Part shown: piece by piece, positions 516 through 18,717 of the stretch
Position numbering within the stretch: position 1 is the first letter of the stretch
Layout: the number at the start of each line of letters is the position of its first letter
DNA from: Brachybacterium fresconis
Lineage (GTDB): Bacteria > Actinomycetota > Actinomycetes > Actinomycetales > Dermabacteraceae
Direction of reading: 5' to 3'
DNA length: 64,000 nucleotides
NCBI RefSeq assembly: GCF_017876515.1
Contig: NZ_JAGIOC010000001.1
Location: 1,736,001 to 1,800,000 of the forward strand
Position numbers and translations under genes: made by a program
The notes under the pieces: model-generated
Databases searched by the model: none
The model's input: the letters and a program-made list of their open reading frames with translations, nothing else
What the model was told of the DNA's origin: nothing

Positions 516-644
516 ATGATGATGACTGGTACTGCTCGAGGGGTTACCCATGTTGAAGAAGCTGTGCCGCACAGAGTCTCTGAGGCAGTCATCTTGCCGG
601 CCCGAGCCGTGACCACTAAGAACCGTTATGAGGCGAGCCGGTGA
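516..644 (+). CDS. Small ORF (42 aa) overlapping the start of the CopD-CtaG gene
   Basis: Three consecutive in-frame ATG codons (516, 519, 522) follow an AGGAAGG purine run at about 507-514. The frame ends in a TGA sharing a GTGA overlap with the GTG start of the copper gene at 641. The peptide begins MMMTGTARGVTHVEEAVPH, has two histidines and no cysteine, and shows no membrane segment. I recognise no family. The spacing and 4-bp overlap are those of a translationally coupled leader or a very small protein, so it may set expression of the downstream gene. It could also be a chance ORF; coding evidence is limited to the ribosome-binding site and overlap. Confidence 0.4.
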   Translation: MMMTGTARGVTHVEEAVPHRVSEAVILPARAVTTKNRYEASR

Positions 645-2632
645 GCTCGATGCGCACCAGAATCCTCATCGTGGGCGCTGCGGCCCCATGGGCTGTTCTG
701 TGGACGGTGATCGCGGCTGCCATGGCGGGAGCGCCGGTCTCGATGGAGCTCGTCGATGCTGGCCCGGTGGTGCGGTGGGGGTTGCCGATCGTCGATGCCC
801 TCGGTGATGTCGTCGGTGCCGCCACCGTGGCGTGCCTCGTGCTGGCGCTCGTCGTCTTGCCCCGACGTCCGGAGCCGCCCGCGTCGGAGGCTGATCAGGA
901 TCCCGGTGCCGTCTCTCGGTTCCATCCGGCGTACGAGCGGGCGCTCGATATCGGCATGGGCCTTGGAATGATGTGGTCAACGCTGCTGGTCGTGCGGATG
1001 GTCCTTGGCTACGCTTTGGCGGCGGGCCAGGCACCCTTCTCCCCGCGCTTCGGCTCCGATCTCCTGATGTACATCACTCGGCTTGAGCTCGGTCAATACC
1101 AGCTTGCCGGTGCGGTGTTCGTCGCTGCTGCCTCGACCATGCTGATCGTCGTGAGGTCCCGCATGGGGCTCCTGATCGCGCTGGGCTTGGTGTTCGCGAC
1201 GTTGGTGACGAAGTCGATGACGGGCCATGCCTCAGGGCAGACCTCTCACGAGGCGGCCACGAGCTCGATGATCGTGCACCTCGTGGCTGCCGGAGTGTGG
1301 CTGGGTGGGCTGGCGCTGCTCGTGCTGGTCGCGGGCCAGCTCGGAGCACGACTGGGGGATGCCGCTGAACGGTTCAGCTCCCTGGCGCTTGCTTGTTATG
1401 GAGCGTTGGCCGCCAGCGGAATTGCCTCTGCCTTGGTCCGGCTCTCCGCGCCCCTGGACCTTGTGACCACGGCGTACGGGTGGATGCTCGTGCTGAAGAC
1501 GGCGCTGCTGGTGCTGCTGGGCGGAGCAGGCTGGTGGCAACGCCGTCGGGTGCTGGTCCGGCAGCGGGACTCGGACCGCCGGAGAGACTTCCTGTGGCTC
1601 GCCGCGGGAGAAGTCTTCCTGATCGCCGCGGCGACCGGACTCGCTGCCGCATTATCGAACTCGGCGCCTCCGGTGCCGGACGAGCCCGAACCGGTCACCT
1701 CGACGGCTGAGGCGCTGACCGACTACCCCTTGCCCGCTCCGCCCGAGCTGACGACACTGCTCACGACCTGGCGTGTTGACGTCGCCGGGATGGCGCTCGC
1801 CCTCGGTCTCGCTGTCATCTACCTCTGGGTGCGGATGCGCCGCCTCGTGCCGGAGACAGGCGGGCGGACCTGGCCCGTGGCGAGGACGGCGGCGTGGATC
1901 GCGGGATGCGCGGTCATCCTCTGGGCAACCAGCGGGGCACCGGGGGTGTACGCGCCGGTGCAGTTCTCTGCGCACTTGGGCCAGCACGCCCTGCTTGCTC
2001 TGGTGGCGGCCCCGCTGCTGGTCGCCGGTCGTTTCGGTGACCTCGTGCGGGAGCGGATCGCTCCTCGGTCGGATGGGTCTGCAGGGTTGCGCGAGCTCGT
2101 CGACTGGAAGCCGGGCTCTCGCGTGGGTCAGTGGCTCACTCATCCGGCGGCGCTGGCGCTGCTCGGCGCGGCGGGATTCGCGGCGATCTACCTGACACCG
2201 GCACTCGGCGCGGGATTGCATACCGCGCCGGGCCGACTGGTCATCCTCACGGCCGCCGTGGTGGTCGGCGCTGCGGTGGCACTGCCATTCCAGGGCAGGG
2301 CGCTGGGCGGTGGCAGGGTCGCTAGGGTGGAGCGCTGGGTGGCCCTTGCTGTGGGGACCGGCGTCCTTGCTGGCCTGGCGATTGTGTTGGCGCTGGCGCT
2401 CCCGGTCGTGGAGCCCGACTGGTTCGCGGCCATGGGGCGGACCTGGGGCGCCGATGCGCTCGGGGATCAACGACTCGGTGGCTGGCTGCTGCTGGCGATG
2501 GTGCTGGTGCTGGCGGTCCTGCACGGCGCACTGATCCCGCGTTCGCGCCGACCCAGCGAAGAACTCTCGGCCGATCGTGACGCTGCGGCGCGGCAGCGAA
2601 CTCGCTCAGCGCCTCGGCCCGGCTCGTCGTGA
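641..2632 (+). CDS. CopD-CtaG fusion: copper resistance D domain plus cytochrome oxidase assembly domain
   Basis: A 663-residue polytopic membrane protein. Residues ~1-350 contain about nine membrane segments and resemble the CopD copper import/resistance family, with GHASGQTSHEAATSSMIVHL as its histidine-bearing segment. Residues ~375-640 match the caa3-type CtaG family, including FSAHLGQHALLALVAAPLL. The two-domain form is common in actinobacteria and is thought to move copper across the membrane for cytochrome oxidase or tolerance. The start is the GTG at 641; an in-frame ATG at 650 is an alternative. The gene faces copC convergently, with 45 bp between the stops, which supports a copper role. 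The coupling to the small ORF ending at 644 is unusual. Confidence 0.85.
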   Translation: MSSMRTRILIVGAAAPWAVLWTVIAAAMAGAPVSMELVDAGPVVRWGLPIVDALGDVVGAATVACLVLALVVLPRRPEPPASEADQDPGAVSRFHPAYERALDIGMGLGMMWSTLLVVRMVLGYALAAGQAPFSPRFGSDLLMYITRLELGQYQLAGAVFVAAASTMLIVVRSRMGLLIALGLVFATLVTKSMTGHASGQTSHEAATSSMIVHLVAAGVWLGGLALLVLVAGQLGARLGDAAERFSSLALACYGALAASGIASALVRLSAPLDLVTTAYGWMLVLKTALLVLLGGAGWWQRRRVLVRQRDSDRRRDFLWLAAGEVFLIAAATGLAAALSNSAPPVPDEPEPVTSTAEALTDYPLPAPPELTTLLTTWRVDVAGMALALGLAVIYLWVRMRRLVPETGGRTWPVARTAAWIAGCAVILWATSGAPGVYAPVQFSAHLGQHALLALVAAPLLVAGRFGDLVRERIAPRSDGSAGLRELVDWKPGSRVGQWLTHPAALALLGAAGFAAIYLTPALGAGLHTAPGRLVILTAAVVVGAAVALPFQGRALGGGRVARVERWVALAVGTGVLAGLAIVLALALPVVEPDWFAAMGRTWGADALGDQRLGGWLLLAMVLVLAVLHGALIPRSRRPSEELSADRDAAARQRTRSAPRPGSS

Positions 2633-2677: not shown

Positions 2678-3331
2678 TCAGTCGGTGCGGTGACCGGAGT
2701 TGCGGCGCAGGCGGACGACGATCGCGCCGATGACGGCGAGCACCAGCAGCAGGGCGAGGCCGCCGAGGATCATGCCGAGGGGGAGCCCGCTCTCGCTCTG
2801 CGATGCATCTGCCTGCTCGACAGGGGTGGCTTCGGCGCTCGGCTCGCCCGTGCCGGTGGTCGGGGCCTCCTCATCTGACCCGGAGTCTGCTGTGTCCGTG
2901 GCCTCGGCGCCGACCGTTACGGTGAAGTCGACTGTGCCCTCGATCGGGTGACCGTCCGAGGAGACGACACGCCACTGGACCTGATAGTCGTCGGCCGGCA
3001 GCGCCGGTAGATCGATCGAGGCCGTGTTGCCGGACAAGGTGGGCGTCTCGGTGAAGATCTCCTCGCCGGCGGAGTTGGTCAATCGCACGACCGGGGAGAG
3101 GTTGAGCACCTCGTCGCTGTAGGTGAGCTCGAGCGTCTCGGGGGCCTGCTCGAAGCTCTCGCCGGAAGCCGGACTCGACGAGATCAAGGAGTCGTGCGCC
3201 GATGCTGCGGGCAACAGTGTGGGCACCGCCAGCGGCATCAGCACGGCGGCGAGCATCCCGACAAGGCTGGCCAGCGTGACCCGCACCGACGCCTTGGTGG
3301 CCCTGCGCGCAACTGTCGTGTCCGCTGTCAT
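2678..3331 (-). CDS. copC: CopC-domain copper-binding protein with C-terminal membrane anchor
   Basis: A 217-residue protein starting at ATG 3331, chosen over an upstream in-frame ATG because GAGGGG sits just before it and a signal peptide begins there. After a hydrophobic signal segment, cleavage near AASAHD would leave a mature N-terminal histidine, the usual copper ligand of CopC. The CopC domain (mature residues ~1-95) has typical motifs such as SSPASGESF and WRVVSSDGHPIEGTVDF. A low-complexity acidic linker leads to a C-terminal membrane helix ending in RLRRNSGHRTD, so the domain is tethered outside the membrane. It probably delivers copper to the convergent CopD-CtaG protein. It is transcribed divergently from the CmtR-type regulator at 3498. 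Confidence 0.88.
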   Translation of the reverse strand: MTADTTVARRATKASVRVTLASLVGMLAAVLMPLAVPTLLPAASAHDSLISSSPASGESFEQAPETLELTYSDEVLNLSPVVRLTNSAGEEIFTETPTLSGNTASIDLPALPADDYQVQWRVVSSDGHPIEGTVDFTVTVGAEATDTADSGSDEEAPTTGTGEPSAEATPVEQADASQSESGLPLGMILGGLALLLVLAVIGAIVVRLRRNSGHRTD

Positions 3332-3463
3332 AACATTCCCCTCTTCGGATGACCCCTCTTGCGGGCGGGTTTGTCCCCGTGACCGGGGCGCATCGAGTGT
3401 AGCGGCGTGCCACGAGACACCCACGGAAGCGTTTCCCAGGATCGGCTCGTCTGACTACACCAC

Positions 3464-3497: not shown

Positions 3498-3872
3498 ATG
3501 ACGATTGATGCTTTCCTGGCCGAGCCCCAGTTCGAGGTCGCAGACAGCCACGCCGCGCTCTTCCATGCCCTTGCCGAACCGACGCGCCTGGCCCTCCTCC
3601 AGCACCTCTCGACCGGTGAGCACCGGGTTCGCGACCTTGTCGAGCACATGCACCTTGCCCAGTCGACCGTCAGCAAGCACCTCTCGTGCCTGCGCGACTG
3701 CGGTCTGGTCACCGCACGCACCGAAGGCCGTTCCTCGTGGTTCGCCCTCACCGATCTGCGCCGGCTGACCGACCTGCTCGAGGTGGCGGACGACCTGCTC
3801 GAAACATCCGGGACCACCTTGTCCCTGAAGAACCACCGCGACCACGAGGACCTCGAGGACGGGGACCTCTGA
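3498..3872 (+). CDS. ArsR-family metal sensor, CmtR type
   Basis: A 124-residue winged-helix repressor. The recognition region reads LAQSTVSKHLSCLRDCGLV, with Cys64 and Cys68 in the C-x3-C arrangement on helix alpha-4 that CmtR uses to bind Cd(II) or Pb(II). The C-terminal tail is acidic and has several histidines (NHRDHEDLEDGDL) but no third cysteine, so the full ligand set differs from mycobacterial CmtR. It overlaps the CDF exporter at TGATG, so the two form one transcription unit. The expected role is repression of the exporter, and of itself, until metal binds. A second paralogue of this type lies at 10820-11179. Confidence 0.85.
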   Translation: MTIDAFLAEPQFEVADSHAALFHALAEPTRLALLQHLSTGEHRVRDLVEHMHLAQSTVSKHLSCLRDCGLVTARTEGRSSWFALTDLRRLTDLLEVADDLLETSGTTLSLKNHRDHEDLEDGDL

Positions 3873-4804
3873 TGAGCTCGGGACACGACCACTCACACGG
3901 CGCCGGCGGGCCGAGCACCGCCCGGACGCGACTCGCCATCGCTTTCGCCATCACGACCGTCATCGTGCTCGCACAAGCGATCGGGAGCGTCGTCACCGGA
4001 AGTCTTGCCCTGCTCACGGACACGGCGCACGCCCTCGTCGACGCCTCCGGTCTGCTCGTCGCGCTGATCGCGGCGACGATGATGCTGCGTCCGGCGAGCA
4101 GCGGCAAAACCTGGGGGTTCGCTCGTATCGAGGTACTGGCGGCCTTGGCTCAAGCCACGCTTTTGATCGTGGTCGGCACCTACACCGCCGTCGAGGGCAT
4201 CTCGCGACTGACGGACCCCCCGGAGGTCCCCTCGGGAGAGCTGCTCATCTTCGGTGTGATCGGGCTGGTCGCGAACATTGTCGGGATTCTCGTCCTGACC
4301 GGAGGCAAGGACTCGAGCCTGAACATGCGTGCCGCGTTCCTTGAGGTCCTCAATGACGCTCTCGGGTCGCTCGGTGTGATCACCGCCGCGATCGTGATCC
4401 AGGTGACTGGGTTCCAACAGGCCGACGCACTGGCCGGATTGTTCATCGCTGCGCTGATCGTGCCCCGAGCGTTCCGCATCATGGCCGAGACGCTGCGGAT
4501 CCTCATGGAGTACACCCCGAAGGGGATTGATCTCGATCAGGTGCGCGAGCACATCCTCGCGCTCGAACACGTCCAGGACGTCCACGACCTGCATGCCTCG
4601 GCGATCGGGAGCAATCTGCCGATCTTCTCGGCGCACGTCGTCGTGGGGGAGGAGTGCTTCGAGTCGGCTCACGCGCTGGGGATCCTCGAAGAGGTCCATC
4701 TCTGCGTCAGGACGCACTTCCCGATCGCGTTCGAGCACGCCACGATCCAGTTGGAGAGCCCGTCCGTGCATCGTCGTGAATCCGAGCGCACCCTGCACGC
4801 GTAG
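3872..4804 (+). CDS. Cation diffusion facilitator (CDF/CzcD family) metal exporter
   Basis: A 310-residue protein, translationally coupled to the CmtR-type gene (ATG at 3872 overlaps its stop). The N-terminus carries a histidine cluster (GHDHSHG). Six membrane segments fill residues ~20-205. The second contains D50-x2-H53-x3-D57, the usual metal site. The fifth, LEVLNDALGS, has Glu158 and Asp162 where zinc-specific CDF proteins normally show H-x3-D. A cytoplasmic domain of ~100 residues follows, ending in SVHRRESERTLHA. The family exchanges Zn, Cd or Co for protons, and the adjacent sensor suggests Cd or Zn. The Glu substitution may alter selectivity. A longer frame opening at 3686 is rejected because it runs through the regulator gene. 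Confidence 0.87.
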   Translation: MSSGHDHSHGAGGPSTARTRLAIAFAITTVIVLAQAIGSVVTGSLALLTDTAHALVDASGLLVALIAATMMLRPASSGKTWGFARIEVLAALAQATLLIVVGTYTAVEGISRLTDPPEVPSGELLIFGVIGLVANIVGILVLTGGKDSSLNMRAAFLEVLNDALGSLGVITAAIVIQVTGFQQADALAGLFIAALIVPRAFRIMAETLRILMEYTPKGIDLDQVREHILALEHVQDVHDLHASAIGSNLPIFSAHVVVGEECFESAHALGILEEVHLCVRTHFPIAFEHATIQLESPSVHRRESERTLHA

Positions 4805-4903: not shown

Positions 4904-5731
4904 TCAGCGGAAGGAGACGAAGGTGGGATTGCCCCAGATGGTGCGCTCGGTGACGGCGCCGGGGGAGCGGCCTGCATCAACGACCTTGTCGCCGCCGGCG
5001 TAGATCCCCATGTGTCCGGGCCACACGACGAGGTCGCCGGGCTGGGCCTCGGACTTGGAGATCTGGGTGCCGGCGTCGACCTGCTGGCCGGATGTGCGCG
5101 GAAGGTCGATGCCGACCTGCTTGTAGGCGTACTGGGTCAGGCCGGAGCAGTCGAAGCTCACGCCCGGGTTGCTCGAGCCCCAGGAGTAGGCGGCGCCCAT
5201 CTGGGTCCGTGCGGCGTCGACGATCGCCTGCCCGGTGCTGCTGGCGGAGGATGCGGGCGCAGGAACTGACGCGCCGCCACCGCTGACGGCCGGGGTGGAA
5301 CCGTTGAGCGAGCCGCGCGTCTCGGGGCCCACCACGCCGTCGACCTGCAGGTCGTTGCTCTGCTGGTAGTCCTTCACCGCGCTATGGGTGAGCGGGCCGA
5401 ACTTTCCGTCGACGGCGAGTGAGGCACCCTCATCGTTCAGTGCGGACTGGAGCTGCTCGACCGAGGCGCCCTGGGATCCCCAGCGAAGCTTCTCGGAGGA
5501 GTCCAGCGCCTGCGCCGGGGCCGGAGCAACGGGGGCGACGGCCTGAGAGACCGCGGACGGCGCGGTGGCCGGAGCCGTGGGTGCCGCCTGTGCCGCCCCG
5601 CTGGCGAAGGCGGAGCCGAGGAGGACGGTGCCGAGGACGGCGGCGCCTCCGGTGCCGCGCAGGGCGCGTCCGCTGGGGCGAAGAGGGGTGACTGCGCGGC
5701 CGTCCGCGCGATGGGAATTGCTCGTGGCCAT
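4904..5731 (-). CDS. Secreted NlpC/P60 cell-wall hydrolase with peptidoglycan-binding domain
   Basis: A 275-residue protein starting at ATG 5731, behind GGAG. A long signal peptide (hydrophobic core ~29-48, likely cleavage after AQA at ~49) is followed by an Ala/Pro linker. A PG_binding_1 domain spans ~83-143 (LRWGSQGASVEQLQSAL, VDGVVGPETRG). The C-terminal NlpC/P60 domain spans ~165-275, with catalytic Cys195 in FDCSGL and His240 in PGHMGIY. It should cleave peptide stems in the cell wall. It lies inside the metal-resistance region but has no obvious functional link to it. A 362-bp untranslated stretch precedes it. Cutting the cell wall may aid DNA transfer of a mobile element, but ordinary growth-related hydrolysis is equally likely. 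Confidence 0.9.
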   Translation of the reverse strand: MATSNSHRADGRAVTPLRPSGRALRGTGGAAVLGTVLLGSAFASGAAQAAPTAPATAPSAVSQAVAPVAPAPAQALDSSEKLRWGSQGASVEQLQSALNDEGASLAVDGKFGPLTHSAVKDYQQSNDLQVDGVVGPETRGSLNGSTPAVSGGGASVPAPASSASSTGQAIVDAARTQMGAAYSWGSSNPGVSFDCSGLTQYAYKQVGIDLPRTSGQQVDAGTQISKSEAQPGDLVVWPGHMGIYAGGDKVVDAGRSPGAVTERTIWGNPTFVSFR

Positions 5732-6093: not shown

Positions 6094-6936
6094 TCACACG
6101 ATGGGCTGGAACGTGGCGATGGAGCCTTGCAGCTGGTCCATCCACGAGGCCCACGTTCCCGTGAGCAGCAGCAGGCCGATCGCGATGAGCAGCGCCCCGG
6201 ACGCAATTCCGATGAGGCGGCGATGTCGTGCAAGTGCCCTGCTCACGCCCATTGCCTTGTCGAGCAGGAGCGCGCTGAGGACGAAGGGGATGCCCAGCCC
6301 GAGCGAGTACGCGAGCGCCAGCGTCGCGCCCCGCGTCGCAGAGCCTCCATCGGCGCCGGCGTCGAGGGAGAGGGCGATGATCGCGGCGTAGGTGGGGCCG
6401 ATGCATGGTGTCCAGCTCAACCCGAAGACGAAGCCCATCAACGGGGCTCCCAGAAGGCCCGCATCAGGGCGTCTCCTGGAAACCTGGAGATTTCCTGTCA
6501 AGCGGGGGAATGCTCCCATGAAAATGAGTCCCATGAACATGACGATGATGCCCGCGACCCGATTGATCCATACCGCGTGCGCCTGAAGCAGATACCCCAT
6601 TGCGCCAGCGAACCCGCCCAGCGCCATGAATACCACCGTGAAGCCAGCGACGAACAACATGCTGCCGCTCAGCATCCTCCCAGTCCCTACGCGGGAAAGT
6701 CTGGGCGATCGCCTCGCATTCCCGATGTTCTCAGGCGTTTCCCGGGGTGGCTTGGTGGCCTGCGGTCCTTGTCCGGCGAGTCCGGAGACGTAGCTGAGGT
6801 AGCCCGGCACGATGGGCAGCACGCACGGTGAGAGGAACGCGATCAGGCCCGCGATCATGGCGACCGTGATGGCCAGCAGAAGAGACCCGGACAGGGCGAT
6901 CGACTGGAAGGTCTCTGCGAGTCCGTTGCTGGTCAC
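6094..6936 (-). CDS. ccdA: CcdA-family thiol-disulfide electron transporter
   Basis: A 280-residue membrane protein with six or more hydrophobic segments. It has the two conserved cysteine motifs of the CcdA/DsbD core: FLSPCVLPIVPGYLSYVSG near residue 38 and LSWTPCIGPTYAAI near residue 179. These cysteines carry reducing equivalents from cytoplasmic thioredoxin across the membrane. The ATG overlaps the upstream tlpA stop by 4 bp, so the pair is co-translated and TlpA is the likely partner. A loop of ~60 residues after the first helix pair (GLAGQGPQATKPPRETPENI onward) is longer and more polar than in short CcdA proteins. In this neighbourhood it probably keeps extracytoplasmic thiols reduced under metal stress, though cytochrome c maturation is the classical role. 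Confidence 0.9.
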   Translation of the reverse strand: MTSNGLAETFQSIALSGSLLLAITVAMIAGLIAFLSPCVLPIVPGYLSYVSGLAGQGPQATKPPRETPENIGNARRSPRLSRVGTGRMLSGSMLFVAGFTVVFMALGGFAGAMGYLLQAHAVWINRVAGIIVMFMGLIFMGAFPRLTGNLQVSRRRPDAGLLGAPLMGFVFGLSWTPCIGPTYAAIIALSLDAGADGGSATRGATLALAYSLGLGIPFVLSALLLDKAMGVSRALARHRRLIGIASGALLIAIGLLLLTGTWASWMDQLQGSIATFQPIV

Positions 6937-7532
6937 GTGGCTCCTTCGTCGAGGACGGCGTCGAGCATCGATCTCAGGATGGAGGGGCTGATCGCCCCCG
7001 AGATCCGGCCCGCGACGCGGCCCTCGTGGTCAAGGACGAGAGTCGTCGGAACAGCGTTGGGCGCGACTTGGCCGCGCAGCTGGTACATGATCTCTGCGTC
7101 CGAGTCCGGCAGCGAGGGGTAGGTGATGCCGTAGGTCTCCTCGAAGGCCGCGGCGGGCCCTGCCGAGTCGCGGACGTTGATCCCGATGAACGAGACGCCC
7201 TGGTCGGCGTACTCCTCGTGGATCGCCTGCAGATCCGGGGCCTCCACCCGGCATGGCGGACAGGAGGCGTACCAGACGTTGACCACGAGCACCGATCCCC
7301 AGTGTTCCGTGGAGTCGAATCGTTCGCCGTCATAGGTGTTCCCGGTGAACTCGACGGGTTCTGTGCGATCGGCGGGAGCGATCTCGGTGGTCACGCCGTT
7401 GCCGGAGACGTATCCGTCGTCCCCGGAGGCGTATCGATCCCCGGTATCAGTGCTGCCGCAGGCAGTGACCAGGCCAGTGACGACCAAGCAGCTGGTGGCG
7501 TAAAGAATCCGTCGCCGGGAGTGGGCGCGCAT
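6933..7532 (-). CDS. TlpA/ResA-like thioredoxin-fold lipoprotein
   Basis: A 199-residue protein with an N-terminal signal and lipobox VTAC (Cys25), so it is probably anchored outside the membrane. The thioredoxin domain (~55-195) contains CPPC (Cys91, Cys94) in VNVWYASCPPCRVEAPDL and a cis-proline near AVPTTLVLD. CPPC is seen in TlpA-type reductases. The start has a good ribosome-binding site (AAGGAGCGAGTAC before ATG). It overlaps ccdA by 4 bp and lies 63 bp downstream of the VKOR gene in the same direction. The expected role is reduction of extracytoplasmic disulfides using electrons from CcdA. An oxidising DsbA/VKOR pair and a reducing TlpA/CcdA pair side by side is notable. Confidence 0.88.
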   Translation of the reverse strand: MRAHSRRRILYATSCLVVTGLVTACGSTDTGDRYASGDDGYVSGNGVTTEIAPADRTEPVEFTGNTYDGERFDSTEHWGSVLVVNVWYASCPPCRVEAPDLQAIHEEYADQGVSFIGINVRDSAGPAAAFEETYGITYPSLPDSDAEIMYQLRGQVAPNAVPTTLVLDHEGRVAGRISGAISPSILRSMLDAVLDEGAT

Positions 7533-7595
7533 GTACTCGCTCCTTCATGAAGATCGTGAGGGGACCGGTGGTGGGCAGGACGAACTCTCCCGCGC

Positions 7596-8231
7596 CTAGA
7601 ACAGCGTGGACCAGTAGTCCCAGAACTTCACGGCGATGAGTGCCAGGATCACGAGGTACCAGGCCACGAGCACCGGGACACGGAACTCGATCACGAGAAG
7701 GGCGGCCCGCCGTATGGCCGGGGTGAATCTGTCTGCCAGGTCACGGAGATGGTGGATCGTGGTGAACCAGAACAACGGGATCGTCACTGCCCACACGACC
7801 ATGCAGTATGGGCACAGTGCCTCGATCTCGTAGAGGCTCTGCCCGATCAGCCACTGCACGAAGAGCGCCGCGAAGGTCACGCCCGCCTGGATGAGCACAC
7901 TCATCCAGCGCGCCACGCGGGCACCGGCGAGAAACGCCAATCCGAGGGCGAGAACGGCCGCGAAACCGGCGATGCCGAGGATCGGATTGGGGATACCGAA
8001 GGCCGAGGCCTGCGGGGTGTCCATCACCGAGCCGCAAGAGAGCACCGGATTGAGGCTGCACGAGGGGACGTAGCTGGGGTCCTCAATCAGTGCAATCTTC
8101 TCGATCAGCAGCACGACGGCCATGACCAGCCCGATTGCGCCGGTGACCGTGAAGAGCATCCCCAGACCGCGTGGCGCCCTCGAATCCCGAGGCGACCCGG
8201 CGGCCGGGCCGTCAGCCTTCGAGCGCGGCAT
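7596..8231 (-). CDS. Vitamin K epoxide reductase (VKOR) family disulfide-bond generator
   Basis: A 211-residue four- to five-helix membrane protein. The start is taken at ATG 8231, overlapping the upstream dsbA-like stop by 20 bp; the frame stays open further upstream but only through that gene. The loop cysteines Cys58 and Cys66 lie in SCSLNPVLSCGSVM, and the quinone-proximal CPYC (Cys140, Cys143) in EALCPYCMVVW. All four cysteines of bacterial VKOR are present. The enzyme reoxidises DsbA with quinone, acting as the DsbB substitute of actinobacteria. The gene order makes the adjacent DsbA-like protein the obvious partner. It ends the tightly overlapped part of the block; tlpA follows after 63 bp. 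Confidence 0.92.
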   Translation of the reverse strand: MPRSKADGPAAGSPRDSRAPRGLGMLFTVTGAIGLVMAVVLLIEKIALIEDPSYVPSCSLNPVLSCGSVMDTPQASAFGIPNPILGIAGFAAVLALGLAFLAGARVARWMSVLIQAGVTFAALFVQWLIGQSLYEIEALCPYCMVVWAVTIPLFWFTTIHHLRDLADRFTPAIRRAALLVIEFRVPVLVAWYLVILALIAVKFWDYWSTLF

Positions 8232-8859
8232 CGAGAGGATCCGTGAGGTCCTCGACCCGGGTAGGCTCCAGGCGCTCCCCGTCGACGAAGAAGGTGGGGG
8301 TGCTGGTGACACCGAGCGCCTCGGCGTCGGCAGCACTCTGCTCGATGCGCGCGAGGGTGGCCGGATCGTCATAGACCTGCTCGAAGCGCTCCATGTCGAG
8401 CCCGAGCTCCTCGGCATACCCGAAGAACGCTTCCCGCTGCGACGTCTCCTGATGACTCCACTCGTCGGCGTTCTCGAACAGCGCCTTGTACATGGCCTCG
8501 AATTCGCCCTGCTCCCCGGCGGCCTCAGCCGCCTTGGCGGCTTCGACAGAATTTCCGTGCAAGGGCAGGTACCGCACCACGAAGGTCACCCGGTCGCCGT
8601 ACGCGGCACGAATCTCTTCGACCGCAGGATATAGGGAGAGACAGGCCTCACACTCGAAGTCGAGGTACTCCACGAAGACGGCCTCGCCACCCTCCGACAG
8701 CCGCGGACTGTCCTCTCGCACGAGCTGCCCCGTCGCGGCTCCGGTGGCCTCCGAGGAATCGGCCTGGTCTTCCTTCGGGTCCAGGAAGATCACGAACCCT
8801 GCGAAAACCACGGCGGCCACGGCAATCAGTCCCAGGGTGAGCTTGACGCTCCTGCTCAT
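8212..8859 (-). CDS. Membrane-anchored DsbA-like thioredoxin-fold oxidoreductase
   Basis: A 215-residue protein with an N-terminal membrane segment (~7-26) and a thioredoxin_4/DsbA-like domain from ~58. The active site is CEAC (Cys70, Cys73) in LDFECEACLSLYP. The cis-proline loop TSTPTFFVDG is near the C-terminus, and the helical insertion between is typical of DsbA. It should donate disulfides to exported proteins and be reoxidised by the VKOR encoded immediately downstream (20-bp overlap). Upstream, its ATG overlaps the ATPase stop by 4 bp, so a metal pump and a disulfide catalyst are co-translated. Whether it serves the pump, other exported thiol proteins or metal chaperones cannot be told from sequence. 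Confidence 0.9.
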   Translation of the reverse strand: MSRSVKLTLGLIAVAAVVFAGFVIFLDPKEDQADSSEATGAATGQLVREDSPRLSEGGEAVFVEYLDFECEACLSLYPAVEEIRAAYGDRVTFVVRYLPLHGNSVEAAKAAEAAGEQGEFEAMYKALFENADEWSHQETSQREAFFGYAEELGLDMERFEQVYDDPATLARIEQSAADAEALGVTSTPTFFVDGERLEPTRVEDLTDPLDAALEG

Positions 8860-10823
8860 GCCTGTCCTCCTGTGGTCGTCGACTTTCGCAGATCCTCTCT
8901 GACGAGGCTGTATGCCCCCTGCGCAGCGGCGCGTCTGCGCGTCCGAGCAGCGCGCATTCCGTTGGCGATGACGACGACCTCGGCGACCTCGTGGACCAGG
9001 ACGACCGCGGCGAGACCGAGCATGCCACTCAGTGCAAGAGGTAGGAGCACGACAATGATCAGCAGCGACAGGACGATATTCTGGTTCATGATGCGTCGTC
9101 CACGACGGGCATGGTCGAACGCGGCCGGGAGGAGACGCAGGTCGTGCCCGGTAAACGCAACGTCGGCCGACTCGATAGCTGCATCCGAACCGGTGGCACC
9201 CATCGCGATCCCGATATCCGCGGCGGCCAGTGCCGGGGCGTCGTTGATGCCGTCTCCGATCATCGCCACCGGAGCGGTACGGGAGAGTTCACTGACCGCG
9301 GCGGCTTTGTCCTCGGGGCGCAGCGCGGCCCGCACATCGCTGATCCCGGCCTGGTTCGCGAGGGCTTGCGCGGTGCGCAGGTTGTCTCCAGTGAGCATGG
9401 TGATCCCGGTGCCTCGTCCGCTCAGGGTGCGGATCACCTCGGGAACTTCTGGCCGCAGCTCATCGCGCACTCCGATCGCGCCGACCGGCTCATGCTCGTG
9501 GTGCACGATGACCACAGTCATGCCCTGAGTCTCGAGTTCCTCTACTCGCTCCGCGAGGGCGCCCGATGCCAGCCAGCGCGGGCTTCCGACCGTGATCACG
9601 GCTTCGCCGACGACCCCCTGGATGCCCTGACCAGCCAGCTCCATCACTTCTGTCGCCTTCGGTGCTTCGGGTGCAGCGGCGGTGATCGCGGCGGCCAGCG
9701 GGTGGGTGCTGTGCTGCTCGAGCGCGGCCGCCCAGGCCACTACCTCGCTTTCGACGGCATTGGCAGTGAGGACGGCGGTGACGGTTGGCTCATTGCGGGT
9801 CAGGGTGCCTGTCTTGTCGAGAGCGACGTGGCGGATGCCGCCGAAGCGTTCGAAGATCGCTCCGGACTTGATGACCACCCCGAACTTGCTGGCCGAGCCG
9901 ATCGCCGCGACCACGGTGATCGGCACGGAGATCGCTAGCGCGCACGGCGATGCGGCGACCAGAACGACCAGCGCGCGGGTGATCCACAACTCCGGATCGC
10001 CGAATATCGATCCGATCAGCGCGACCAAAGTCGCGAGGATCAGCACTCCGGGAACCAAAGGGCGGGCGATGCGGTCGGCGAGACGGGCGCGGTCGCCCTT
10101 TTCGGCTTGGGCTTGCTCGACCAGCTCCACAATGGTAGTCAGCGAGTTGTCCGTCCCTGCTGCGGTCGCCTCGACCTCGAGAGTTCCGGCGTTGTTGATC
10201 GCCCCTGCCGAAACCGCATCGCCAGGTTCTACCTCGACAGGAATCGATTCCCCGGTGATCGCGGAAGTGTCCAGACTGCTGTGCCCCGAGCGCACGATCC
10301 CGTCGGTCGCGATCCGCTCACCGGCGCGCACCAGCATCACCTGACCCGCGGTCAGCTCTCTTGCGGCGATCGGAGTCCACGTACCGTCGATGGAGACGGA
10401 CGCGGTGTCGGGGACCAGCTTCAACAGCGCCCGCAGTCCGCCACGGGCCCGGTCCATCGCCTTATCCTCCAGCGCTTCGGCGATCGAGTAGAGGAACGCC
10501 AGCGCTGCGGCTTCCTCGACGTAGCCCAGGATCACCGCACCGACCGCGCTGATCGTCATCAGGAGACTGATGCCGAGCTTGCCCTTGAGCAGTGCCCGGA
10601 TCGCGCCGGGCGTGAACGTTGAGGCGCCCAGAAGCAGGCCACTCCAGAAGAGCGCAAGGGCGGGTATCCCCGCACCGGACCACTCACAAAGGAGGCCAGT
10701 AAGGAACGCGATACCGGAGAGCACGGGAAGGAGCACCTCGCGGTCCTTCCACCAGGGCCCGTCGCCATCGTCGTGATTGCTGACGTCGACGCTGTTCACC
10801 TGCGGGTCCGTCACCGCGCTCAC
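8856..10823 (-). CDS. P1B-type heavy-metal ATPase, SPC (P1B-4-like) class
   Basis: A 655-residue pump. The start is taken as GTG 10823, giving a 4-bp GTGA overlap with the regulator stop; an in-frame ATG at 10877 lies inside the regulator gene. It has no N-terminal metal-binding domain with a C-x2-C motif. The transmembrane metal motif is SPC (~292-294), the actuator motif is TGES, the phosphorylation site DKTGT lies at ~336-340, HP at ~374-375 and GDGIND follows. The last helix pair carries VLVHEVAEVVV. SPC plus the missing N-terminal domain points to the P1B-4 group (Co, Fe, Zn, Cd exporters such as mycobacterial CtpD) rather than copper pumps. It is co-transcribed with the CmtR-type sensor and with dsbA-like and VKOR genes. 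Confidence 0.9.
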   Translation of the reverse strand: MSAVTDPQVNSVDVSNHDDGDGPWWKDREVLLPVLSGIAFLTGLLCEWSGAGIPALALFWSGLLLGASTFTPGAIRALLKGKLGISLLMTISAVGAVILGYVEEAAALAFLYSIAEALEDKAMDRARGGLRALLKLVPDTASVSIDGTWTPIAARELTAGQVMLVRAGERIATDGIVRSGHSSLDTSAITGESIPVEVEPGDAVSAGAINNAGTLEVEATAAGTDNSLTTIVELVEQAQAEKGDRARLADRIARPLVPGVLILATLVALIGSIFGDPELWITRALVVLVAASPCALAISVPITVVAAIGSASKFGVVIKSGAIFERFGGIRHVALDKTGTLTRNEPTVTAVLTANAVESEVVAWAAALEQHSTHPLAAAITAAAPEAPKATEVMELAGQGIQGVVGEAVITVGSPRWLASGALAERVEELETQGMTVVIVHHEHEPVGAIGVRDELRPEVPEVIRTLSGRGTGITMLTGDNLRTAQALANQAGISDVRAALRPEDKAAAVSELSRTAPVAMIGDGINDAPALAAADIGIAMGATGSDAAIESADVAFTGHDLRLLPAAFDHARRGRRIMNQNIVLSLLIIVVLLPLALSGMLGLAAVVLVHEVAEVVVIANGMRAARTRRRAAAQGAYSLVREDLRKSTTTGGQA

Positions 10824-11179
10824 GCGAGTGCCTCCGCATCGCAGCAGCCCGGGACTGGGCAAGTGGGATTGAGGCACGCGGCACTCTCATCGACCGCGAG
10901 AGTCACTTCGACCAGCGCGTTCAAGGCCGCGGTGAGGTGCGGATCGGAGATCTCATACCGGGTCTGCCGTCCCTCCGGCTCGGCGACCACGATCCCGCAA
11001 TCCCGTAGGCAACTTAGATGGTTCGACACGTTCGACCGCGTCAGCTCAAGCTCGCGTGAGAGCACTGCTGGGTAGCTCGGAGCCTCCAGAAGTGTCAGCA
11101 AGATTCGTGACCGTGTCGGATCTGCCATCGCACGGCCCAGGCGGTTCATGACGTCCAAACGAGATGCAATAGTCAGCAT
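10820..11179 (-). CDS. ArsR-family metal sensor, CmtR/CadC type (second copy)
   Basis: A 119-residue winged-helix repressor. The recognition helix region TRSNVSNHLSCLRDCGIV carries the C-x3-C pair of CmtR, and the C-terminus adds a cysteine-rich tail, ACLNPTCPVPGCCDAE, which supplies extra thiolate ligands. It is clearly paralogous to the regulator at 3498, sharing the HLSCLRDCG core, but differs in the tail. It heads the block ending with ccdA and overlaps the ATPase start by 4 bp. A 27-bp imperfect palindrome immediately upstream overlaps its promoter, indicating autoregulation. Cd, Pb or Zn are the likely inducers by family. Confidence 0.9.
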   Translation of the reverse strand: MLTIASRLDVMNRLGRAMADPTRSRILLTLLEAPSYPAVLSRELELTRSNVSNHLSCLRDCGIVVAEPEGRQTRYEISDPHLTAALNALVEVTLAVDESAACLNPTCPVPGCCDAEALA

Positions 11180-11186
11180 GGGGTGA

Positions 11187-11213
11187 CCATACAGTGGTCA
11201 CTGACCAGTATGG
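11187..11213 (-). promoter_or_regulatory. Palindromic operator and promoter of the cmtR-ATPase block
   Basis: The outer arms CCATAC (11187-11192) and GTATGG (11208-11213) are perfect complements, and the interior contains GTGGTCACTGAC, itself partly symmetric. On the minus strand TATGGT is followed by 6 nt and then the ATG, so this sequence probably contains the -10 of a leaderless transcript. A bound repressor would block it. The operator assignment is inference. Confidence 0.6.
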
Positions 11214-13181: not shown

Positions 13182-14621
13182 ATGCACACCGCCTCCCTCG
13201 CCTTCCGCTTCGGCCTTGCCGAACTGCGCTGGATCGCCACGGCCCTGTGGGGTCATGTGTGCTGGTTCCACCGGTTCTGGTTCGTCGTCGCGATGTTCAC
13301 CTGGCTCACGGCCGATCTCCTCGGCAGCTGGAAGCCCTTTGCCGTCGTCGGTGCGATCGCGCTCTACTTCGTGCTCTGGGCTCGGTTCTACCCTGAGAGC
13401 TACTTCCGCGCCATACACCGCCCCCTCTGGCGGCGGGAACTCTGGCTCGACCTGCTCGAGACCTGGCCGCTGCTCATGGAGGAATGCGGGCTCTCCTCCG
13501 TCAACATCGACCGTGCGGGACAGAAGCACACTCGCGTTCCCACCATTGCGAGCAAGCGCTGGCACCGCAACGAGCTCGTCCTCATCCCGGGGCTCCTGAC
13601 CGGTCAGACCGTGGAGGACTTCCAGTCCGTCGCGGAACGTCTTCGGACCACCGTGGGCGCGACAAACCTTCGGGTGACCGGGGACCTCTCCCCCACCCTC
13701 AGTTTCACCTTCGGTGATGCCCTCGCAGAGACCCTCTATCGCGGGCTCCCGGAAGCGGAAGACCCCTGGGACGGTCGCTCGGCGTGGATGGGGATCGATA
13801 CCCGGGACGAAGACTGGTGGCTCCGTGTTGCGGGCACACACACCCTCGTCGCTGGGTCCTCCGGCTCCGGCAAGGCGTCCCTCGTCTGGGGCGTCACCAT
13901 CGGCCTTGCCCCTGCCATCGCCCGCGGAGAAGCACAGGTCCACGGGATCGACCTCAAGGGCGGTGTCGAACTGGGGATGGGCAAGGACCTGTTCACCCGC
14001 TACGCCGTGACTCCCGCTGAAGCCGTGGTGGTCCTCGAAGAGGCGGTCGACGCCATGAGCGCTCGCCTCGAACGGATGGCCGGGAACTCCCGCCAGCACT
14101 CGGCAAGCTCCGATGAGCCCCTCGTCGTCGTCCTGATCGACGAGGTCGCCGCTCTGACGTCGTACATCGAGGACCGCGACCTCAAAGGCCGTGCCCGCAC
14201 AGCGATGTCGCTGCTCTGCTCCCAGGGCCGCGCCGTCGGCTACACGGTGGTCGCCTGCCTCCAGGATCCCCGCAAGGAGACGATCCCCAACCGTGGCCTG
14301 TTCACACAGATGGTCGGACTCCGGCTCCGGGATCGCGAGGAGACCTCCATGGTCCTCGGGGACGGTGCCGTCGCTTCCGGCGCCCTCTGCCACAAGATCC
14401 CGCTGGCCTCACCGGGCATCGGCTACGTCGTTCCCGAGGACGGCTCTGAACCGATTCGCGTACGTGCCGCCTTCGTCGATGACGACCTGATTCGGGCTGC
14501 GGCTGCGCGGTTCCCCGCCCCCTCGACGATTCCCGTGGTCGTTCCGGAACCGGCGGAGAAGCCCCGCAGCTCACGGTCCCGCCCTCGGACCAAGCCCGAC
14601 ACGGAAGGAGCAGAATCGTGA
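13182..14621 (+). CDS. FtsK/SpoIIIE-type DNA translocase (TraB/TraSA-like)
   Basis: A 479-residue protein. Two hydrophobic segments (~32-50 and ~54-68) anchor the N-terminus. The motor domain follows with Walker A GSSGSGKAS (225-233) and Walker B VVVLIDE (315-321). The residue after the Walker lysine is Ala rather than Ser/Thr, which I recall as tolerated in mobile-element Tra proteins (often GKGS). Such proteins pump double-stranded DNA between mycelial or rod-shaped cells and can be sufficient for conjugation in actinomycetes. It sits between the membrane peptide and the initiator, overlapping the latter by 4 bp. The length is shorter than cell-division FtsK (>750 aa), supporting a mobile-element role. 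Confidence 0.85.
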   Translation: MHTASLAFRFGLAELRWIATALWGHVCWFHRFWFVVAMFTWLTADLLGSWKPFAVVGAIALYFVLWARFYPESYFRAIHRPLWRRELWLDLLETWPLLMEECGLSSVNIDRAGQKHTRVPTIASKRWHRNELVLIPGLLTGQTVEDFQSVAERLRTTVGATNLRVTGDLSPTLSFTFGDALAETLYRGLPEAEDPWDGRSAWMGIDTRDEDWWLRVAGTHTLVAGSSGSGKASLVWGVTIGLAPAIARGEAQVHGIDLKGGVELGMGKDLFTRYAVTPAEAVVVLEEAVDAMSARLERMAGNSRQHSASSDEPLVVVLIDEVAALTSYIEDRDLKGRARTAMSLLCSQGRAVGYTVVACLQDPRKETIPNRGLFTQMVGLRLRDREETSMVLGDGAVASGALCHKIPLASPGIGYVVPEDGSEPIRVRAAFVDDDLIRAAAARFPAPSTIPVVVPEPAEKPRSSRSRPRTKPDTEGAES

Positions 14622-16093
14622 GCGACACCGATCTCTACGCCCTCGACGTGGACGACCCCACAGCACTTAAGCGGATGCTCTCCGACGGCTTCGAGGACTG
14701 GTCCAAGCAGGCCGCCTCGACAGGGTTCTGCTCCCGTCCGGTGCGCCTCTTCGGCCAGGCAAGCACCTTCGACCGCCGGTCCGGACAGCACCTTCACACC
14801 TTCGACAGCCGCGACCTGCCCGACAGCGTCCTCTACATCCGCTGCGGCAATCGACGCTCCTCCCGCTGCCCCTCGTGCTCCCACGAGTACCAGGGCGACA
14901 TGTGGCACCTCCTCTCTGCAGGCGTCTCCGGCGGAGACAAGGGAGTTCCGGAGAGCGTCTCCACCCACCCACTGGTGTTCCTCACCCTGACGGCTCCGTC
15001 GTTCGGCACTGTGCACTCGTCGACTCGTCCCGGTGCCCAGCCCCGGCCGTGCACCGTCAATTCCGCGCCGGGGCAGTGCGGGCACGGTCGCCCTCGTCGT
15101 TGCACGGAGCACCACGACGTCGACGATGCTCGGGTCGGTCAGGCACTGTGCCGGGACTGCTACGACTACGAGGGGCAGACGATCTGGCAGTGGCACTGTC
15201 CCGAGCTGTGGCGGCGGTACACGATCCGGCTGCGCCGTCTTGTCGCCGCTCACCTCGGCATGAGCGAGAAGGCCTCGAGGGATCTCCTTCGCGTGCAGTT
15301 CGCCAAGGTCGGCGAGTATCAGAAGCGCGGGGCGATCCACCTTCACGCGCTCGTTCGGCTCGACGGCGCTCCGACGGACGAAGAGCCCTTCCCCTCCCCC
15401 GCTGTCGACGTCCCCGCTTCCTGGCTCGCAGAACGCTGTCTGGAGGCCGCGCGGGACGTTGAGATCGATGCCGCCCCGGTCGACGCCTATGATTCCGCTC
15501 GCGTGCTCCGCTTCGGACGTCAGGTCGACGCCCGGCCCGTCCAGCGCCACACCCACGAGGACGGCGACGTCTCCCCTGAGATGGTGGCGGCCTACCTCGC
15601 CAAGTACGCCACGAAGTCGGCCGGCGATGTCGCCACAGAGGGCACGCCGAATCGCCACTTGAAGCAGCTTCGGGAGACCTGCCTTGAGCTGTGCGGCCGG
15701 GCGCTGCTCGATGAGGGGTTCTCGAGCCCCTACGCACTGCTCGGGAAGTGGGCTGATGCCCTCGGCTTCCGCGGGCACTTCGCCAGCAAGTCCCGACAGT
15801 TCTCGACCACCCTCGGCACGCTCCGCGACGCACGGCGCAAGTACCACCGCGACCGCGAACAGCTCGAGACCCGCGGAGACCTCGCGACTGTCGACGACTC
15901 CCTCGACGCCGTCGAACACACCGTCGTGATCAACGAATTCCGCTTCGTCGGACAGGGCTGGCTCACCCCCGGTGATGCCGAACTTGCCCGTTCCGCCGCT
16001 GACGCAGCACGCGAGTGGAAAGACGCTCGCCGCGCTGCACCTCGACCCCACGAGAAAGGAAAGAACCATGGAGAAGCTCTGCTTCACCGCTGA
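14618..16093 (+). CDS. RepSA-like replication initiator
   Basis: A 491-residue protein with a GTG start at 14618, overlapping the translocase stop (GTGA). Cysteine pairs suggest zinc ribbons: CGNRRSSRCPSC at ~76-87, and a second set CGHGRPRRC to CRDCYDYEG at ~154-181. HLH (241-243) in KRGAIHLHALVRLD matches the HUH-like metal motif of rolling-circle initiators, followed later by YLAKYATKSAG. This is the plan of pSAM2 RepSA and related actinomycete initiators. It would nick the element's origin for replication after excision. The last 26 bp overlap the excisionase gene. Confidence 0.85.
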   Translation: MSDTDLYALDVDDPTALKRMLSDGFEDWSKQAASTGFCSRPVRLFGQASTFDRRSGQHLHTFDSRDLPDSVLYIRCGNRRSSRCPSCSHEYQGDMWHLLSAGVSGGDKGVPESVSTHPLVFLTLTAPSFGTVHSSTRPGAQPRPCTVNSAPGQCGHGRPRRCTEHHDVDDARVGQALCRDCYDYEGQTIWQWHCPELWRRYTIRLRRLVAAHLGMSEKASRDLLRVQFAKVGEYQKRGAIHLHALVRLDGAPTDEEPFPSPAVDVPASWLAERCLEAARDVEIDAAPVDAYDSARVLRFGRQVDARPVQRHTHEDGDVSPEMVAAYLAKYATKSAGDVATEGTPNRHLKQLRETCLELCGRALLDEGFSSPYALLGKWADALGFRGHFASKSRQFSTTLGTLRDARRKYHRDREQLETRGDLATVDDSLDAVEHTVVINEFRFVGQGWLTPGDAELARSAADAAREWKDARRAAPRPHEKGKNHGEALLHR

Positions 16094-16253
16094 GGAAGTC
16101 GCTGATCGGCTCAGCGTCTCGAAGACCCGGGTATATGACCTGATGCGCTGCGGCGAGCTGCCCAGCGTCAAGCTCGGTCGCTCCCGCCTGATCAAGGCCG
16201 TCGATCTTCTCGCCTACGTCGAGAACCTCGAACCGGCCCCCGTCGTCGCATGA
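16068..16253 (+). CDS. xis: Excisionase (AlpA/Xis-type winged helix-turn-helix)
   Basis: A 61-residue protein, from ATG 16068 behind GAAAGGAAAG. An upstream in-frame ATG at 15972 lies inside rep and is rejected. It begins MEKLCFTAEEVADRLSVSKT and continues RVYDLMRCGELPSVKLGRSR, the standard MerR-like helix-turn-helix of the excisionase family. It would bend DNA at the attachment site and drive integrase toward excision. It overlaps rep by 26 bp and the integrase by 4 bp, so rep, xis and int are coupled. This order is the hallmark of actinomycete integrative elements. Confidence 0.88.
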   Translation: MEKLCFTAEEVADRLSVSKTRVYDLMRCGELPSVKLGRSRLIKAVDLLAYVENLEPAPVVA

Positions 16254-17377
16254 GCCGCGCGAACGGTGAGGGCAGCATCTACCGGCGCAAAGATGGCCGG
16301 TGGGCTGGCGCTGCGTACGTCCTCACCCCGGACGGTGCCCGCAAGCGGAAGACGGCGTACGGGAACACCCGCAAGGACGTAAGCACCAAGCTCGCCAACA
16401 TGCAGGACAAGTCCCGCTCGGGCATCGCAGCAACACCCGGACGCCTCACCGTGAAAGCTTTCCTGGAAGCATGGATGCGTGATGTGCAGGAACCTCGCCT
16501 GAGCCCTGCGACGTACCAGACGTATGAGGGATACATCCGGAACCACATCGTGCCCGCGTTGGGATCAAAACCGCTGGGGCAGCTCACTGCCTCGGATCTG
16601 AGGGAGTTCCTCGGCGCGAAGACTCGTGAGGGAAAAAGCGCGGCCACGGTCAAGCAGATCCACGCGATCATCCGCTCCGCTCTCCAGCACGCGATGCGTG
16701 AGGACCTCGTTCCGAGGAACGTGGCGAAGCTGGTCGTCGTCTCTAACCCCGTACGCCAGGATGTCGAGCCGTTGACCCCGGAGGAGGCGAAGAAGCTCCT
16801 GAAAACAGCGAAGGGGCACGATTGGGAAGCCCTTTGGACCCTCTACGTCGGACTCGGGCTGCGACGAGGTGAAGCCCTGGGGCTCCGGTGGAGCGATGTC
16901 GACCTCGAGAACGGTCGCCTGCGGGTCGTGCAGTCCCTTCAGCGCTCCAGAGGAGAGCTGCGCCTGAAGAGCCCCAAGACAGACACCTCGCGCCGTCGGA
17001 TCGTGCTCCCCGCCTTCTGCATCGACGCCCTCACCCGTCACCGCACCTCCGAGCGAGAGAAGCTTGCTTCGCTCGGGCTGCCCGTTGACCCGACAACACT
17101 CGTTTTCACCTCCCAGGCCGGCACCCCCATCGAGCCCCGCAACGTGAACCGTGCCTTCGAGGCACTACTGAAGAAGGCGAAGCTGCGCCGAGTCAAGCTG
17201 CACGACCTCCGCCATACCTGCGCCTCCTTACTCCTCGCTGAAGGCGTCGCTCCGCGCGTCGTTATGGAACTGCTGGGGCACTCCGCCATCGCGGTCACCA
17301 TGAACACCTATTCGCACGTCATTCCTGCATTGCAGGACGAATCCGCCCAGCGGATGGATGCCCTCTTTCGAGCCTAG
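16250..17377 (+). CDS. int: Tyrosine site-specific integrase
   Basis: A 375-residue tyrosine recombinase. The N-terminal arm-binding domain starts MSRANGEGSIYRRKDGRWAG, a core-binding SAM-like domain spans ~65-160, and the catalytic domain ~175-365. The catalytic set is visible: Arg205 in GLGLRRGEAL, H318-x2-R321 in HDLRHT, His344 in LLGH and Tyr354 in NTYSHV. All are intact, so the enzyme is probably active. ATG overlaps the xis stop. The element's target is presumably the tRNA-Lys gene 1.3 kb downstream, although the second attachment copy was not found. Confidence 0.93.
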   Translation: MSRANGEGSIYRRKDGRWAGAAYVLTPDGARKRKTAYGNTRKDVSTKLANMQDKSRSGIAATPGRLTVKAFLEAWMRDVQEPRLSPATYQTYEGYIRNHIVPALGSKPLGQLTASDLREFLGAKTREGKSAATVKQIHAIIRSALQHAMREDLVPRNVAKLVVVSNPVRQDVEPLTPEEAKKLLKTAKGHDWEALWTLYVGLGLRRGEALGLRWSDVDLENGRLRVVQSLQRSRGELRLKSPKTDTSRRRIVLPAFCIDALTRHRTSEREKLASLGLPVDPTTLVFTSQAGTPIEPRNVNRAFEALLKKAKLRRVKLHDLRHTCASLLLAEGVAPRVVMELLGHSAIAVTMNTYSHVIPALQDESAQRMDALFRA

Positions 17378-18666: not shown

Positions 18667-18717
18667 TTGCCCACTTTGGGGCGAGGTCTGGAAACACGAA
18701 CTTGGCTCTGACCAGGG

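Follow-up and report, generated by a model that had tools for sequence, protein, structure and literature searches.

Bacterial metal resistance is usually framed as sensing plus efflux. In Mycobacterium tuberculosis the cmtR-pacL2-ctpG operon, described as Cd-responsive in the available part of the report, gives Cd tolerance (PMC13043812). A block of six genes in a stretch of 64,000 nucleotides from Brachybacterium fresconis (contig NZ_JAGIOC010000001.1, positions 1,736,001 to 1,800,000; hereafter the window) resembles that operon in that a CmtR gene stands ahead of the gene of a CtpG-like pump, but here a DsbA-like oxidase, a VKOR, a TlpA-like reductase and a CcdA follow (Table 1), whereas the mycobacterial operon, in the text available, has no redox genes, includes a PacL gene (PacL was not searched for in the block) and encodes a pump with APC where SPC is found here. 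The Scs systems of Salmonella, Proteus and Caulobacter (PMC5524982, PMC8900818, PMC3672137) are likewise extracytoplasmic thiol-redox clusters connected with metal tolerance, ScsC supporting copper tolerance in Proteus (PMC5524982); as described in the available parts of these papers, however, they are Gram-negative systems concerned with copper, whereas in the present block VKOR with DsbA, TlpA with CcdA, a Cd/Pb sensor and a pump are found together. Membership of the Scs group was considered for the block but is not supported, as its DsbA matches the Scs entry 4gxz with an E value of 0.0022 and the copper/metal-resistance chains 6nen and 6mhh with 0.0021-0.0029, compared with 3e-13 to 2e-11 for the four best chains, and of the combination of an ScsC-type foldase with a DsbD-like ScsB the block has only a DsbD-type membrane domain (Pfam). 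In Mesorhizobium, a member of another phylum, a ccdA gene downstream of the Zn/Cd pump gene cadA is induced together with it, more than 4-fold with Zn and Cd, its role being left open, and LspA and thiol-disulfide proteins are also induced (PMC3668242); DsbA-VKOR is not mentioned in the accessible text. Excerpts of three further papers place cmtR, lspA, resA and czcD together in an island table of a Brevibacterium genome (PMC12467314), CcdA-DsbA modules, tied to sulfur metabolism, on an Arthrobacter plasmid (PMC6305408), and, in Sulfobacillus, a gene for VKOR together with metal resistance genes in a region that resembles a plasmid (PMC6803676). Among the matches listed from the open literature, as far as their text was available, no description was found of a pump combined with both disulfide making and disulfide breaking. 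An earlier note, made from this DNA alone, had called such a system little-described; the idea does have precedents, in the role of Scs in copper stress and in the Zn/Cd-induced ccdA beside cadA (PMC3668242).

We assign a probability of roughly one half to the reading that the block is a metal-inducible resistance operon in which an envelope thiol-redox set has been added to a metal pump. The block consists of six intact minus-strand open reading frames (ORFs) which, on the evidence of family matches, occur in the order proposed in the earlier note (cmtR, P1B ATPase, dsbA, vkor, tlpA, ccdA), and its values for the junctions were reproduced on recomputation: from cmtR to ccdA these are -4, -4, -20, +63 and -4 bp, when GTG 10823, ATG 8231 and GTG 6936 are taken as the start codons of the ATPase, VKOR and CcdA, respectively. 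The cmtR product scores 173.5 bits against the NF047906 equivalog, for which the cut-off is 150, and aligns without gaps to residues 1-103 of M. tuberculosis CmtR (2jsc), retaining Cys57, Cys61 and Cys102, which we take to be the metal ligand set of CmtR. The ATPase is most similar, among solved structures, to ZntA (4umv) and sCoaT (7qbz), and no N-terminal metal-binding domain was found in it by a Pfam scan. P1B-4 pumps are marked by a membrane SPC and by HEG(G/S)T near the C-terminal end. SPC and HE are present here, but the P1B-4 label needs care, for the protein is CtpG-like and its C-terminal motif is HEVAE, compared with HEGST in the P1B-4 pump sCoaT. The link between ctpD and a thioredoxin gene in mycobacteria, which the earlier note cited, may thus concern a different type of pump; these motifs give no support to a close ctpD-type relation.

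The redox proteins all keep their active-site cysteines. The DsbA has an N-terminal anchor, a CEAC site and a TP motif of the cis-Pro type, and the VKOR carries, besides CPYC, a second pair in CSLNPVLSC, the features of a DsbA-VKOR oxidative pair. An exported TlpA with a CxxC site, whose relatives of solved structure include ResA, together with a CcdA that has a cysteine in each of two helices, likewise corresponds to a TlpA/ResA-CcdA reductive pair. The CcdA is 69% identical to the ResB-linked CcdA of the same genome.

Table 1. Predicted features of the metal and redox block and of its surroundings; positions are those of the window unless prefixed C1.
Feature	Position	Strand	Basis or remark
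CmtR-type promoter/operator, leaderless, GTCA-N8-TGTATGGTCA	11184..11205	-	sole exact match in window
cmtR, Cd/Pb-sensing ArsR/SmtB repressor	10820..11179	-	NCBIfam NF047906 equivalog; Pfam/NCBIfam checks
CtpG-like P1B metal-exporting ATPase, 655 aa, SPC motif	8856..10823	-	TIGR01512/TIGR01525, Pfam
Membrane-anchored DsbA-like oxidase, CEAC site, metal-linked class	8212..8859	-	Thioredoxin_4 and DSBA
VKOR, membrane re-oxidant of DsbA	7596..8231	-	PF07884, 3.1e-41; 20-bp overlap with dsbA
TlpA/ResA-like thiol reductase, lipoprotein (VTAC lipobox), CPPC site	6933..7532	-	PF00578 (AhpC-TSA), ResA/TlpA models
CcdA, membrane carrier of reducing power, Cys in SPC and TPC motifs	6094..6936	-	PF02683 (DsbD_TM/CcdA)
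NlpC/P60 cell-wall peptidase, downstream of ccdA, same strand	4904..5731	-	Pfam
CDF divalent-metal exporter, convergent to block	3872..4804	+	PF01545/TIGR01297 on longer ORF 3686-4804; start by coding score
Second ArsR/SmtB regulator, ahead of CDF gene	3498..3872	+	HTH_5, 1.1e-15
CopC-domain secreted protein	2678..3424	-	PF04234
CopD-CtaG fusion (copper / caa3 oxidase assembly)	641..2632	+	PF05425 and PF09678
FtsK/SpoIIIE-type translocase of integrative element	13182..14621	+	PF01580
RepSA replication initiator (pSAM2 type)	14618..16093	+	PF20199, 3.5e-144
Tyrosine integrase	16250..17377	+	PF00589
attR, 59 bp over 3' part of tRNA-Lys	18704..18762	-	57/59 repeat, attL, at C1:1732598-1732656

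Control of the block appears to be exerted from its upstream end, where the TGTAT of a CmtR-type site begins 14 nt ahead of the cmtR ATG. Of 68 distinct upstream regions (retrieved loci and the window, with CmtR at least 60% identical), 67 have an element resembling TGTAT(A/G)GT(T)CA at 14-15 nt ahead of the CmtR start, and 60 have the upstream half as well; the pattern, which is loose and was itself derived from these sequences, was met in 1 of 1360 shuffles. So constant an element is usable as a search motif for leaderless CmtR promoters. Ahead of tlpA or further downstream there is no second CmtR site, an exact-match scan of the window returning only the one before cmtR. When 2 mismatches were allowed, a palindrome search gave 5 matches including the exact one, two of the others inside the tlpA and vkor genes; with an expectation of 1.85, and with as many as 5 in 2 of 100 shuffles, we attach no meaning to the additional matches. 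The sequence thus points to a block that sits behind a single leaderless promoter controlled by CmtR, with no second exact site inside it, and all six genes would then probably share one transcript. A general promoter scan reported a single promoter-like site, on the plus strand ahead of the ArsR-CDF pair, and a terminator scan reported 2 terminator-like sites, one of them in ccdA on the minus strand, compared with 2.4 expected.

The arrangement is found again elsewhere, which the earlier note had proposed as a check. Recurrence was surveyed by searching for DsbA in 297 genomes from the order, the own genome included, and by examining the neighbourhoods of 79 of the places found. The six-gene order is intact in 3 of the 296 other genomes, two of the same genus (L123 and L124) and one of another family (L129), and because it recurs a chance arrangement is unlikely. 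The redox proteins of L123 and L124 are 87-92% identical to those of the window and the two copies are nearly alike, so they hardly count as two independent cases; in L129, pump and redox proteins are 38-61% identical to the window's. A further locus of the genus (L125 / L217, genome G222) has a decayed block in which only the last ~115 residues of the pump still match and tlpA and ccdA are broken. Its dsbA, vkor and NlpC/P60 genes match over their full length, and ~13 kb away there is another CmtR gene, accompanied by a pump whose frame is open throughout. The same parts also occur in other arrangements, as pump-DsbA-VKOR with a divergent TlpA-CcdA (L127, L128) or with the redox genes ahead of cmtR (L037, L058), and plasmid forms of such pump/redox islands are present in Rhodococcus, Mycobacteroides, Gordonia and Paenarthrobacter. 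An 11.9-kb contig labelled as part of a Verrucomicrobia metagenome-assembled genome (L015) also encodes such a pump, with 78% identity to that of the window, perhaps through a binning error or recent transfer.

The DsbA of the block belongs to a class that is mostly linked to metal exporters. Strong DsbA matches (at least 160 bits, 53 places) were separated from weak ones (26 places) by a line drawn, after the scores had been seen, in the gap from 162 to 148; 20 of the 26 weak controls were hand-picked from the DsbA match list and 6 taken by rank, while the strong set includes close copies or overlaps (L132/L133, L139/L144, L153/L154 and L157/L158) and several short contigs. With these limits, 38 of 53 strong neighbourhoods, but 1 of 26 others, have a gene for a metal exporter or for CopC no more than 9.5 kb away. 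At the level of genomes, a strong DsbA was found in 46 of the 297 (54 best places), a CtpG-type pump in 65 and both in 25 (Fisher p 1e-7, uncorrected for kinship). The active sites differ too, being CEAC, CESC or CEGC in 50 of 65 strong rows and CPYC or CPFC in 20 of 27 weak rows. In a DsbA tree with 65 rows, the starred branches require that a directly upstream pump was gained or lost at least 6 times and a CDF gene at least 5 times. Another type of operon joining an exporter to DsbA is seen at four loci (L142, L143, L152, L164), where an ArsR gene is followed by a short CDF-like gene and then by DsbA; three of the four also have VKOR, and in L143 the CDF-like protein has a Cys-rich tail at its end.

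Several observations indicate that the block was put together from parts. Compared with DNA of Brachybacterium equifaecis, the window is ~90% alike over 0.75-8.75 kb, although 3 of 32 intervals of 250 bp there fall to 70-78%; across the pump and cmtR the agreement drops to 57-73%. The change falls in the first part of dsbA, near 8.72 kb in a base-level alignment; a perfectly sharp recombination point at the start of dsbA was therefore rejected, the change lying inside the gene and being less sharp than in the 250-bp profile. In the pump tree the window stands beside Mycetocola manganoxydans (99/95), and a pump clade of the window, L123 and L124 is rejected by the approximately unbiased (AU) test (p-AU 2e-72; the group was named after the drop in identity had been seen and before any pump tree). 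The DsbA and the TlpA-CcdA of the same three loci, by contrast, form starred clades. Since the pumps are apart and the redox genes together in these trees, the regulator-pump cassette has apparently been exchanged while the redox genes stayed. The TlpA-CcdA pair tells a similar story between lineages. In the window's lineage its nearest kin in the tree are ResB-linked copies from the same genus, among which it nests (99/97); the pair of L129 likewise nests within the ResB-linked copies found in the genus of L129 (100/100), and a single origin of the pairs in six-gene blocks is rejected (p-AU 2e-6; group named after a first quick tree). The combined TlpA and CcdA tree leaves out the decayed block of L217, and a quick CcdA tree had long branches whose rows are absent from the main tree. 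The DsbAs of the window's lineage and of L129, on the other hand, fall in one starred clade of ten rows, 8 of which have a pump as the next recognised gene upstream (decayed L125 counted). Judged by these trees, which do not tell gains from losses, the TlpA-CcdA pair was either gained on two occasions or present earlier and on two occasions exchanged for a local copy, and on either origin the slot was kept. The own genome has a third TlpA-CcdA pair (L209 12274-18016, C1:342-348 kb) near an NlpC/P60 paralogue, with a Mutator-type transposase between them, and close relatives of this pair are present in four other genomes of the genus.

If the block is a resistance operon of this kind, Cd(II) or Pb(II) (or Zn) would lift CmtR off the one leaderless promoter, and the six genes would be read as a single transcript. 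The ATPase would pump metal across the membrane to the wall space, in which exposed cysteines would be bound by soft metals. DsbA, re-oxidised by VKOR, would make disulfides of exposed cysteines in exported proteins and so remove targets of the metal, and the lipoprotein TlpA, fed by CcdA from cytosolic thioredoxin, would re-reduce sites that need reduction or have been wrongly joined, such as the heme sites of apocytochrome c. That metal induces the block, that electrons flow in this direction and that the block serves protection is what we infer from the genes. Mutation of dsbA makes Escherichia coli sensitive to Cd and Zn, which the accessible part of the report explains by binding of the metals to free thiols (PMC7598926).

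Recurrence, the single CmtR-type site, the exporter-linked class of the DsbA and a TlpA-CcdA slot filled from two sources make the dedicated, metal-linked envelope thiol system proposed in the earlier note a reasonable suggestion. Several results, however, weigh against it. Seen from the pump, the link with DsbA is weak: only 18 of 75 other CtpG-type pump places have a strong DsbA within 14 kb, 6 of them within 500 bp, and 57 of 75 have none within 20 kb, which suggests that the redox genes are optional. Similarly, a DsbA, VKOR, TlpA or CcdA match was found at 16 of 80 pump loci of a named collection (~26 of them distant relatives, with matches counted within the available DNA of each locus); the two ratios rule out pump and redox genes as a fixed unit. 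Seen from the DsbA, 15 of 53 strong neighbourhoods contain neither exporter nor CopC, and as 9 of these have a VKOR the DsbA-VKOR pair evidently also lives elsewhere; 39 of 65 rows of the DsbA tree have neither pump nor CDF as the next recognised upstream gene. A break of the transcript within the 63-bp vkor-tlpA gap is also conceivable, the promoter scan having missed even the CmtR promoter. Finally, related islands carry ResB, CcsA, CtaG, LspA and Lnt, and they keep alive the chief competitor of the thiol-protection reading, with which it overlaps.

According to that competitor, the block is a spare kit for the maturation of cytochrome c and oxidase: metals would block the housekeeping route, and the island would supply a metal-induced second TlpA-CcdA, CtaG-CopD for the oxidase, and a DsbA-VKOR pair feeding the same pathway. 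The nesting of the island TlpA-CcdA with ResB-linked maturation copies in both six-gene lineages is in its favour, as are the gene labels (phmmer) of the 53 strong neighbourhoods, which comprise VKOR in 28, TlpA or CcdA in 22, CtaG in 19, LspA or Lnt in 10, ResB or CcsA in 9 and M23 or NlpC in 7, compared with 0 for each in 24 weak controls. Label-free clustering recovered ResB (8 loci) and CcsA (7 loci) independently; for CcdA the phmmer labels were used, because all-against-all clusters had merged it with 12 unlabelled ORFs (16 of 53 and 11 of 26 loci). Moreover, a Rubrivivax cadA mutant has less cytochrome c and cbb3 oxidase when exposed to Cd, but that report links the losses to the synthesis of heme, and thiols are not mentioned by that word in the part of its text available (PMC7283390). 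Against a complete kit, neither ResB nor CcsA was matched in the window, and the single ResB found in the own genome belongs to a housekeeping CcsA-ResB-CcdA-TlpA set at C1:1662-1666 kb. Assignment of the block to System II of cytochrome c maturation, in which ResB and CcsA act with ResA and CcdA, was accordingly rejected: its TlpA-CcdA nests with such sets, but the block lacks the other two proteins and the housekeeping set is separate. A further VKOR and a further DsbA are also encoded in the genome, so the block supplements pathways that are already there. Overall we regard the spare kit as rather unlikely, yet it is the rival to be taken most seriously.

Less probable again is hitch-hiking, in which the redox genes came to lie behind the pump by chance of assembly and serve general fitness rather than metal resistance. 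It would agree with the position of the block as cargo of a 22-kb integrative element, with a gene content that differs greatly between islands and with the many such pumps that have no DsbA of this class nearby; 4-bp overlaps, a slot filled repeatedly from different sources and the retention of the redox genes through a swap of the pump are hard to reconcile with it. A set devoted to maturing one exported metal-binding or metal-processing protein, be it CopC, the NlpC/P60 peptidase or an unknown thiol carrier, seems improbable, for although NlpC/P60 follows ccdA in the window, L123 and L124 and CopC and CopD-CtaG are nearby in the window and L123, the exported neighbours vary among islands, no candidate of constant place was found, and L129 has the six genes with no NlpC or CopC recognised in the 14.6 kb read. 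For the maturation of a thiol metal carrier, which the earlier note had also suggested, the analysis brought up neither support nor contrary evidence.

More broadly, and with somewhat less confidence than we place in the resistance-operon reading of this one block, it is possible that the metal islands of actinobacteria include genes dedicated to envelope maintenance and induced by metal, whose products would serve as a reserve for extracytoplasmic targets of metals or repair them, by disulfide making and breaking here and, elsewhere, by maturation of cytochrome c, oxidase and lipoproteins. If so, resistance would consist of export together with upkeep of the receiving compartment, a combination built several times by selection from different parts. 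The Gram-positive wall space receives the metal in the very place where lipoproteins, cytochromes and wall enzymes are made, and built-in thiol care would therefore help to explain how this compartment survives. Gene order and trees indicate that a sizeable number of actinobacterial islands combine efflux with thiol chemistry outside the cytoplasm.

In the present case the vehicle is, by its gene content, an integrative element. RepSA, an FtsK-like translocase, an integrase and a duplicated tRNA end are the features of pSAM2-type actinomycete integrative and conjugative elements (AICEs); the attL repeat lies 3.3-3.4 kb left of the window, where the tRNA is not whole, and the 22.16 kb bounded by the att repeats contain the whole metal and redox block. 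The att duplication and the element genes around the block thus mark it as the cargo of an AICE-like element, whose mobility is predicted from its genes and which differs from pSAM2-type AICEs in carrying ~10.5 kb of metal/redox cargo. The G+C content is 0.667 in the block, compared with 0.700 in the chromosome right of the element. The NlpC/P60 gene occupies the same place in L123 (92%) and in L124 (91%, cut by the contig end). Just outside attL there is an arsenic-type block (L213 106-3917, C1:1728.1-1731.9 kb) with an SBF-family (ACR3-like) transporter and a flavoprotein, both from Pfam, and ArsR-like and low-molecular-weight-phosphatase/ArsC-like genes read from the sequence.

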